Positions 12,886 through 20,436 of a DNA stretch of 64,000 nucleotides are shown here, piece by piece (the first letter of the stretch is position 1; every line of letters starts with the position of its first letter). This DNA is from Nitratireductor thuwali. GTDB taxonomy: Bacteria > Pseudomonadota > Alphaproteobacteria > Rhizobiales > Rhizobiaceae. The position numbers and the translations under genes were made by a program. The DNA lies in NCBI RefSeq assembly GCF_036621415.1, contig NZ_CP030941.1, forward strand, positions 1,672,001 to 1,736,000, read 5' to 3'. Under the pieces are notes generated by a model, which saw nothing but the letters and a program-made list of their open reading frames with translations, was not told where the DNA came from and did not search any database.

Positions 12886-13506
12886 TCAGGCTTCCGCCGG
12901 CCGCAGCACGGTGATCAGCACACCATAGGGCACGAGCATCGCCAGCCCCACGAGCAGCTTTACGCCGAGATCGCCCAGCGCCAGCGACACCCACAACGGC
13001 ACTTCCGCGCCAAACCCCAGCAGCGGCACGGCGAAGGCAAGGGACCCGTCCTGCAGTCCCAACCCCGTATCGAGAAAGGAAAACCGGGCGGCGAAGGCGA
13101 GCGAGAAAAAAAGAGCTGTGTCCACCGCCGAGCCGACCAGCGAGGAGACCAGCGGCGCGCGCCACCAGACGCCATGGCGCAGCCGATCGAACACGGCGAT
13201 GTCCAGCAATTGCGCGACCAGAAAGGCCGTGCCCGAGGCGATGGCGATGCGCGGGCTCGCAAGCCACACGGACAGAAGCACAGCCAGCACGAAGCCGACC
13301 AGCACGACGCGCCGCGCCGCTTCCGGCCCGAAACGGCGGTTGCTCAGATCGGTGACGAGGAACGCGGCGGGATAAGTGAAAGCGCCCCAGGTGAGGATTT
13401 CGCCCAGGCCCAGATGCTGAAACGGAAACTGCACGAGGAAGTTGGAGGCGGCGACGATGGCCGTCATGGTGGCCACAAACGGCCAGACTGCATAAATGCG
13501 CGTCAT
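12886..13506 (-). CDS. queuosine precursor transporter (VUT/YhhQ family)
   Basis: 206 residues, about six transmembrane helices, matching the COG1738/YhhQ family that imports preQ0 or preQ1 for tRNA queuosine modification (E. coli YhhQ is the characterised member). Recognisable segments are TYPAAFLVTDLSNRRFG near residue 45 and SSLVGSAVDTALFFSLAF near 120. The ribosome site CCAGGA stands eight bases before ATG, separated by an A-run; this leader could form a preQ1-I-like pseudoknot (see the separate entry). It lies 60 bases downstream of rpmB on the same strand. Confidence 0.92.
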   Translation of the reverse strand: MTRIYAVWPFVATMTAIVAASNFLVQFPFQHLGLGEILTWGAFTYPAAFLVTDLSNRRFGPEAARRVVLVGFVLAVLLSVWLASPRIAIASGTAFLVAQLLDIAVFDRLRHGVWWRAPLVSSLVGSAVDTALFFSLAFAARFSFLDTGLGLQDGSLAFAVPLLGFGAEVPLWVSLALGDLGVKLLVGLAMLVPYGVLITVLRPAEA

Positions 13507-13532
13507 TTTTTTATCCTGGGTAATGGAACCAG
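13504..13532 (-). promoter_or_regulatory. candidate preQ1-I-like riboswitch overlapping the transporter start
   Basis: On the minus strand the 29 bases ending at the ATG read CTGG-TTC-CAT-TA-C-CCAG-GATAAAAAA-ATG. CTGG/CCAG form a short stem; the loop CAT can pair with the AUG start; the C before CCAG sits where the ligand-pairing cytosine sits in known preQ1-I aptamers; the A-rich tail has the expected length. GGUUC, ACCC and AAAAAA recall the class I consensus, as does the Bacillus element. The gene itself imports queuosine precursors. The stem is only four base pairs and the loop shorter than usual, so this remains a candidate. Confidence 0.45.
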
Positions 13533-13533
13533 C

Positions 13534-13555
13534 GGGCGGGATCAGGATCCCGCCC
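13534..13555 (-). terminator. hairpin after rpmB, possible terminator
   Basis: A near-perfect inverted repeat (GGGCGGGATC, two bases, GATCCCGCCC) lies 14 bases beyond the rpmB stop. No T-run follows on either strand, so it may only slow transcription or protect the rpmB 3' end before the candidate preQ1 element. Confidence 0.35.
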
Positions 13556-18512: not shown

Positions 18513-19127
18513 TTACCGCTTCAACAGGAACACCGCCTGCTGGCCGAAGAAGTTCCAGAACCACCACGGCATGGACAGCCCGATCTTCTGCCCGTTGGCA
18601 TCCAGGGCGGCGGCGCTTTCCACCGTGGCGCCTATTTCCTCGCAGAGCGCAACGAAGTCGCGGATCGTGCAGAAGTGGATGTTCGGTGTGTCGTACCAGG
18701 AATAGGGCAGGTCCTTCGTCACCGGCATGCGCCCCTTGAACAGGAGGGAGAACCGCACCCGCCAATGGCCGAAATTGGGAAAGGAGACGATGGCGCGATC
18801 GCCGATGCGCAGGAGTTCGTCGAGCACCGTCCTCGGATTGTGTGTTGCCTGGAGCGTCTGCGACAGAACCACGTAATCGAACCCCCGGTCCGGATAGAAA
18901 ACGAGATCGCGGTCGGCGTCGCCCTGTACCACCGAAAGGCCCCGCGCCACGCATTCGTTGACGCCGCGCTGCGAGATTTCCAGGCCCCGCCCATCGACTT
19001 TCTTCTGGCCTTCGAGCAGTTCCAGCAGCGCCCCGTCGCCCGAACCGACATCCAGCACTTTCGCGCCCGGCCTGATGAGATCGGCGATGACCTGGAGGTC
19101 GACCCGCTGGGCGTTGTTCACGCTCAT
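18513..19127 (-). CDS. metW: methionine biosynthesis protein MetW
   Basis: 204 residues with a methyltransferase fold: [17 protein letters not shown] (SAM motif I) around 22-38 and the MetW-specific [16 protein letters not shown] and [10 protein letters not shown] segments. MetW partners MetX, and evidence from related bacteria indicates that it stimulates homoserine acetylation. Its ATG overlaps the metX stop by four bases (ATGA), so the two are translationally coupled, and both are governed by the SAM-II leader ahead of metX. Confidence 0.96.
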
Positions 19128-20323: not shown

Positions 20324-20355
20324 CAAAAAACCGGCATTGCCATCGCAAAGCCGGT
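20324..20355 (-). terminator. intrinsic terminator between the SAM-II aptamer and metX
   Basis: Minus strand: ACCGGC-T-TTGC-GATG-GCAA-T-GCCGGT, ten base pairs with one T-T mismatch and a four-base loop, followed at once by six T residues. It lies about 15 bases after the SAM-II aptamer and 30 bases before the metX start, the position expected for ligand-controlled premature termination. Confidence 0.8.
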
Positions 20356-20369
20356 CAGAAAGCTGCACG

Positions 20370-20425
20370 GCCTTTTAGCGACTTGTTTTACGTGGCTGCA
20401 AGCCGACCGGCCAAATCACCACGAC
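20370..20425 (-). ncRNA. SAM-II riboswitch (metX leader)
   Basis: Read on the minus strand, the segment contains CGTGGTGATTTGG, then GGCTTGCAGCCACG and ends GTCGCTAAAAGGC, the conserved parts of the alphaproteobacterial metA/SAM-II motif. CGTGG pairs with CCACG to form the main stem and the 3' GCTAAAA segment forms the H-type pseudoknot around S-adenosylmethionine. It starts about five bases after the predicted transcription start and precedes a terminator, so binding probably stops transcription of metX-metW. Confidence 0.93.
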
Positions 20426-20436
20426 AGTTGACCAAG

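Follow-up and report, generated by a model that had tools for sequence, protein, structure and literature searches.

On the minus strand of the window, the whole 64,000-nucleotide stretch of Nitratireductor thuwali DNA analysed here, yhhQ (12886..13506) encodes a COG1738 queuosine-precursor transporter of 206 amino acids. The product scores 92.6 bits against TIGR00697 (queuosine precursor transporter; cut-off 50.95), bearing out the YhhQ-type gene named in a first-pass annotation, and 121.8 bits against NF008406, below the cut-off of 252. The upstream neighbour is rpmB, encoding ribosomal protein L28 (13569..13865, minus strand; TIGR00009 above cut-off). A GC-rich hairpin (13534..13555, minus strand) lies between rpmB and the element described below, stopping one base short of its P1 stem; it has no U-run and is probably terminator-like. 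The same genome encodes Tgt (tgt) and QueF, so preQ1 is probably made and used in this host. Elsewhere in the window, a SAM_alpha (SAM-II) riboswitch occupies 20355-20432 on the minus strand (76.7 bits, E = 1.6e-15); the open reading frame (ORF) downstream of it (18513-19127, minus strand) is one that we take to be MetW-like.

A preQ1-I-like element at the start of yhhQ

Sequence, model matches and covariation place a preQ1-I type III-like element at 13504..13533, N1 to G30 in the numbering of the Escherichia coli 30-mer. It lies on the minus strand, a strand the first-pass annotation had not given, and its bases 13532 to 13504 read CUGG UUCCAUUAC CCAG GAUAAAAA AAUG. P1 is a short stem of four pairs, formed by CUGG (positions 2-5; 13529..13532) and CCAG (positions 15-18; 13516..13519). 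The loop UUCCAUUAC, with seven pyrimidines among its nine bases, contains both UU and AC. It opens with U6, U7 and C8 (13526..13528), termed UC type here; by alignment, U6 and U7 are the equivalents of E. coli ligand-pocket bases and C8 that of a pocket-ceiling base (roles as described in PMC10622847). C9, A10 and U11 (13523..13525) follow as the 5' strand of P2 and form an anti-start-codon. L2 consists of U12, A13 (the gatekeeper equivalent) and C14 (the ligand specificity equivalent; 13520..13522), and C14 stands directly before the 3' strand of P1, where the ligand-binding cytosine had been proposed.

Downstream of P1, L3 comprises G19, A20 and U21 and a conserved A-tract up to A27 (13507..13515), including the A25-A27 equivalents, so that an A-rich tail separates CCAG from AUG. 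The 3' strand of P2, A28, U29 and G30 (13504..13506), is the AUG start codon of yhhQ. The +4 base, the first base of codon 2, is an A (13503) that is unpaired with C8. The compact layout of four-pair stem, loop and A-rich tail first proposed for this leader is thus found on the sequence, as is the pairing of CAU with AUG. The ribosome site AGGA (13514..13517) lies half within P1, with the AUG seven bases on; its proposed overlap with the 3' stem strand holds in part, being confined to two bases, A17 and G18.

A motif pattern allowing up to three mismatches matched the window once and none of 100 dinucleotide shuffles. Folding energies are uninformative for the element, since the E. coli riboswitch used as a control is also indistinct from its shuffles (z = 0.14, against -0.15 for the window element). 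Rfam searches at gathering and relaxed thresholds gave no preQ1 match at the element, and RF00522 (PreQ1, the public preQ1-I model) had no match across its own genome at E ≤ 10; in that genome search E. coli was among the control genomes with some match, its place not given. The preQ1-I assignment of the first-pass annotation accordingly goes unmatched in Rfam, but the same relaxed search also misses the yhhQ leader of E. coli K-12 (L047:5176-5211; no Rfam 15 match at E ≤ 10 in a 301-base search). Because this positive control fails too, the negative carries no weight, and, as far as a single E. coli leader can show, it suggests that type III leaders escape the current Rfam model. The relaxed matches that did appear, to a sobemovirus frameshift element and a Streptomyces sRNA, fell on the GC-rich hairpin far below thresholds and were rejected.

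Conservation and distribution of the element

A protein search for yhhQ gave matches in 49 of 61 genomes, and 46 of the 49 leaders were read, leaving out three genomes with weak yhhQ matches only (G052, G054 and G055). The family of the window, presumably Rhizobiaceae in the broad GTDB sense, accounts for every leader in which the element was found: all 16 genomes of the genus, the window included, and 17 of 19 yhhQ-bearing genomes of other genera, one of which (L037) escaped the first pattern and was picked up later. The 11 yhhQ leaders read in other families of the order are all without it. Family relatives keep the stem, the C and the CAU/AUG pairing, the three features on which the first-pass annotation had staked its claim. 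Across the 16 genus genomes, the commonest base per column reaches a mean frequency of 0.96 in the element, compared with 0.49 upstream and 0.775 at the gene start.

We built a first covariance model (R1) from 32 leaders. In an order-wide sample of 397 genomes, the covariance model gave E < 1e-6 in 19 of 21 listed family members and in no other genome. At E ≤ 0.1 it matched 357 of 394 family genomes, nearly always once each; two of the 357 matches were judged false, as they are not beside yhhQ (L115 and L116, in genomes G525 and G770). With a broader model, only the window's genome fell below 1e-3 among 385 genomes of the class, and only 16 family genomes did so among 398 of the phylum. The order, class and phylum samples thus hold no out-of-family match below E = 1e-3, and 34 weaker out-of-family loci that we checked were rejected for having no yhhQ (11 at the order level, L067-L077, and 23 others, L221-L239 and L255-L258). 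Among the matches listed, carriers include Mesorhizobium, Rhizobium, Sinorhizobium, Agrobacterium, Brucella, Bartonella, Aureimonas, Shinella and Chelativorans.

Twenty of the 37 model-negative family genomes were examined. In eight, no yhhQ match appeared; the remaining 12, which do have yhhQ, comprise two with a long-linker form overlooked by the model (G505, G572), one with a decayed-looking element (G514) and nine in which we recognised none. In the 1.5-Mb genome G514, the leader before yhhQ (L122) keeps the 5' stem strand and loop, with the 3' stem strand and A-tract altered. The element is therefore dispensable, given these nine genomes with yhhQ but no element and its absence from the 11 leaders of other families. 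Three genomes (G663, G707 and G742) have two model matches each; in G663, full GG-type elements (defined below) precede different gene starts (L152, L153), so another gene may be under control there or the gene may be duplicated.

P1 is CUGG/CCAG in 170 of 172 elements, and two lineages show compensatory changes, to CUAG/CUAG (L107) and CCGG/CCGG (L037). The counting patterns required P1 pairing, U6, CAU and C14, so the invariance of these features is partly by construction; the only family loci of model R1 that failed the patterns are the two not beside yhhQ. In alignment A4, the floor G-C, specificity C and A-rich L3 columns are invariant. Of the 167 elements in which two L2 bases precede C14, 14 have C or U in place of A13; 5 of 172 elements carry an extra base in L2. 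No element with a GUG or UUG start was recognised with patterns that demanded an A before UG.

Pairing statistics were taken from 48 of the 57 sequences of alignment A3, because A3 shifts the AUG in nine rows of unequal length. Paired cells make up 93.0% of 384, compared with 90.7% after shuffling, a level that none of 500 shuffles reached. Two-sided pair changes number 2 (shuffled 1.0; 10/500) and the covariation score is 0.034 (shuffled 0.016; 1/500). The count of further pair types, 2 against a shuffled mean of 2.8 (500/500), speaks against structure. Slid registers reach at most 46.6% paired, and one of them (+3, with 5 of 8 pairs counted) equals the real covariation score.

Stems ending one or two bases before P1, as in the window, occur in 91 of 207 leaders (51 of 207 when shuffled), and stems at any position are also commoner than in shuffles (184 versus 143 of 207). 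We rejected the idea that a hairpin abutting P1 on its upstream side belongs to the element in general: its gap to P1 varies, and terminators of the upstream gene suffice as an explanation. A U-run ends within one base of P1 in 17 of the 207 leaders. At four loci (L020, L102, L104 and L112), an intrinsic-terminator-like hairpin and U-run end at the riboswitch candidate.

Loop types, codon 2 and the frame of the start codon

Family elements fall into three loop types according to positions 7-8, which are UC, GG or GC, and the loop type predicts the first base of codon 2. Among 263 distinct elements, the +4 base is C in 114 of 114 of the GG type (GCAU:AUGC) and G in 21 of 21 of the GC type (CCAU:AUGG). 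In the UC type, to which the window element belongs, +4 is G in 0 of 128 and otherwise A (76), C (30) or U (22), a range that includes the A of the window. An earlier, overlapping set of 172 elements gave 68/68, 13/13 and 0/91 for GG, GC and UC, and the 79 countable loci among the matches listed follow the same pattern, these sets again overlapping. For comparison, +4 is G in 9 of 45 genes of an R. etli plasmid. This relation between loop and codon 2 is the strongest evidence for the element. The elements were gathered by protein search, by model R1 and by a sequence pattern; as the RNA model and pattern ended at the AUG, sampling was not selective for the +4 base.

A quick tree built from 207 YhhQ rows requires at least 12 changes of loop type. 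For the +4 base it requires at least 27 changes among the 111 UC rows and none among the 81 GG and 15 GC rows. Independent pairs on supported branches number 3 and 4, none of them contrary, with median p values of 0.25 and 0.125 that are not significant alone. The simplest explanation is that GG and GC types form a fourth P2 pair, between position 8 and the first base of codon 2, and that the UC type avoids this pair, C8 having another role in the pocket ceiling in E. coli. The CAU/AUG pseudoknot of the first-pass annotation is in this way extended by one base of codon 2 in two of the three loop types.

The AGG of the ribosome site is kept in 251 of the 263 elements and replaced by GGGA in one more (L037). 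Of these site-keeping elements, 192 have a readable frame, and in every one of them the paired AUG lies in the YhhQ frame; a further 60 lie on fragments too short for reading it. Similarly, among at least 80 named loci, 79 of them countable, the paired AUG opens a YhhQ-homologue ORF in 75; the other four are three Aureimonas loci with yhhQ in another frame and one whose ORF runs off the end of the sequence.

AGG has been lost in the remaining 11 elements (L108, L110, L111, L113, L114, L125, L126, L267, L296, L316 and L361). All 11 combine the GC loop type with a fifth P1 pair, and two have a sixth; a fifth pair occurs in 25 of the 251 AGG-keeping elements, wobble counted. That G19 belongs to the AGG site would explain why position 19 is usually G and P1 is held to four pairs. 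The frame can be checked in 10 of the 11, the sequence of L361 ending too early. In 9 of these 10 the paired AUG is out of the yhhQ frame, and all 10 have an AUG or GUG in the yhhQ frame 8-11 bases past the GGA of AUGGA; in L111 the paired AUG is in frame, yet a GUG also follows 8-11 bases past AUGGA. Judging from this spacing, the pseudoknot strand would again be a ribosome site in the AGG-less lineages, which include Aureimonas among those named.

The in-frame AUG of the site-keeping elements, together with GG and GC pairing that reaches codon 2 without exception in 135 elements, speaks against a reading in which the fold is real but works as in E. coli, hiding the ribosome site through the AGGA in P1, with the AUG pairing incidental. 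Such a mode of action, which we consider unlikely, could draw on the overlap of AGGA with P1, on the resemblance of the AUGGA strand in AGG-less lineages to a ribosome site and on the translational preQ1 riboswitches in Table 1 of a review, which target the ribosome site (PMC11625349); of the AGGA, however, just A17 and G18 lie inside P1. We prefer the start codon as the target of the pairing.

Proposed mechanism and relation to known preQ1-I riboswitches

The first type III preQ1-I riboswitch solved by crystallography was that of the E. coli yhhQ leader; in it, U6, A27 and C14 contact preQ1, A13 is a suggested gatekeeper, A25-A26 lie in the pocket floor and C8 lies in the pocket ceiling (PMC10622847). 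The K-12 leader, AUUGGGUUCCCUCACCCCAAUGGUUAAUCAAAAAGG, matches the family consensus, ACUGGUUCCAUCACCCAGGAUAAAAAAAUG (first base variable), position by position, and its sequence is consistent with the 36-mer numbering used in that description (PMC10622847). P1 and loop align without gaps, E. coli reading UUCCCUCAC and the family consensus UUCCAUCAC. The sole consensus difference in the loop is A10 for C10, to which the window adds U12 for C12, and the tail carries the matching change of G29 to U29. The C10-G29 pair is thus replaced by A10-U29, which turns the tail AAGG into AAUG and the ribosome-site strand into a start codon. All bases with a role in the crystal structure as described are present in the window: G5-C15, U6, U7-A27, C8-A28-U11, A13, C14, A25, A26 and A27. 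As loop length and register equal those of E. coli type III, the loop is not small by the standard of that type, contrary to the first-pass description of an unusually small variant.

We conclude that the element is very probably a preQ1-I riboswitch variant of type III architecture, widespread in Rhizobiaceae broadly defined, that controls yhhQ translation through the start codon. The sequence, pairing, covariation, conservation and gene association are observed; preQ1 as the ligand, stabilisation of the fold by binding and a fall in translation are what we infer from them. When ligand is absent, the leader would be open, and the ribosome would take the AGGA and then the AUG seven bases on. 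When preQ1 is present, the loop would fold back, with C14 reading the ligand and A25-A27 packing along P1, and C9-A10-U11 would pair with A28-U29-G30, the start codon. In GG and GC relatives, a fourth pair would form between position 8 and the base that follows the AUG, the first of codon 2. P1 would simultaneously hold half of the AGGA. Plentiful precursor would in this manner block initiation and turn down the YhhQ importer.

Alternatives to this mechanism are not all exclusive of it. The GG and GC types, which make up 96 of the 207 tree rows, have no U7, a base that makes an important contact with A27 in E. coli (PMC10622847), so the pocket is not identical across the family. With G7 and either G8 or C8 in place of U7 C8, and with YhhQ salvaging preQ0 and preQ1 alike (PMC10622847), at least these types could be preQ1-I-like folds that sense another queuosine precursor, preQ0 or queuine. 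We give this possibility little credence: C14 and the A-tract, whose E. coli equivalents read the guanine-like face and the minor-groove edge, are kept, and the window element is of the UC type like that of E. coli, whose binding of preQ0 is about 138-fold weaker than its binding of preQ1 (PMC10622847). It is most improbable that the leader is an ordinary conserved translation-initiation region without ligand sensing: AGGA, A-tract and AUG are normal initiation parts, but conservation is as high in the 5' stem strand and most of the loop, for which initiation has no use, as in the ribosome site, the loop covaries with codon 2, the stem shows compensatory changes and the element is absent from the 11 leaders of other families of the order.

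The preferred reading, a translational switch acting at the start codon, would make that codon part of the ligand-bound knot, unlike in the preQ1 riboswitches of the review's Table 1 (PMC11625349). Most of the genomes sampled from this large family, which includes nitrogen-fixing symbionts and pathogens by the names among the matches listed, would have one more translational switch, and codon 2 would be tied to RNA structure. Bolder, and in our view doubtful, is the idea of a fourth kind of preQ1-I riboswitch, in which the start codon roofs the pocket and selects the first base of codon 2, start codon and ribosome site are exchangeable in evolution, as the AGG-less lineages would illustrate, and the ligand of the GG and GC types has shifted to preQ0 or queuine.

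The preQ1 riboswitches listed in Table 1 of the 2024 review all target the ribosome site or transcription termination, and the review's main text describes no start-codon-hiding preQ1 riboswitch and does not contain the words 'start codon' (PMC11625349). As summarised in a 2013 survey, preQ1 riboswitches occur mostly in Firmicutes, plus one or two proteobacterial lineages (PMC3766115). Among the literature titles and abstract openings searched, none concerned a preQ1 riboswitch from Rhizobiaceae or one pairing with a start codon.

The element has the general features of preQ1-I riboswitches, namely an H-type pseudoknot, a G-C floor pair, a specificity C, an A-rich L3 and placement before a queuosine transport gene. 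The type II riboswitch of Thermoanaerobacter tengcongensis has a loop one base longer than that of the window family. It shares the AC before the 3' P1 strand, and its loop purines resemble the GG type. Unlike in the window element, no more than two of the four steps in its P2 are canonical pairs (PMC11625349) and the first two ribosome-site bases alone are integrated (PMC10622847).

Type III is described as having a pyrimidine-rich loop with UU after the 5' P1 strand and AC at the specificity base (PMC11625349); the window element has all of these, and the GG and GC types are without the UU. The type III tail, AAGG, is the ribosome site and is paired in P2 (PMC11625349). Here the tail is AAUG, the start codon, for which reason we file the element as type III-like and not as a member of type III. 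A longer, variable 3' tail joins P1 to the expression platform in type III (PMC10622847), whereas 161 of 172 family elements have three linker bases and seven A, counting that of the AUG.

Set beside E. coli type III, the window element shares the yhhQ gene, the nine-base loop, A13 before C14, the G5-C15 floor pair, the A-rich tail and a P2 of positions 9-11 with 28-30. It differs in a 3' P2 strand that is AUG, the start codon, instead of AGG, the ribosome site, in an A-U instead of a C-G pair at 10-29 and in a ribosome site that sits in P1 and linker; its GG and GC relatives, besides being without U7, add the pair 8-31 into codon 2. Its linker is short, and its natural length, from the base before P1, is 30 bases compared with 36 in E. 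coli, the same as the shortened E. coli crystal construct (PMC10622847). If our reading is correct, a natural RNA is as short as that trimmed construct, and nature would offer a series showing how the same pseudoknot can pass from masking a ribosome site to masking a start codon and back.
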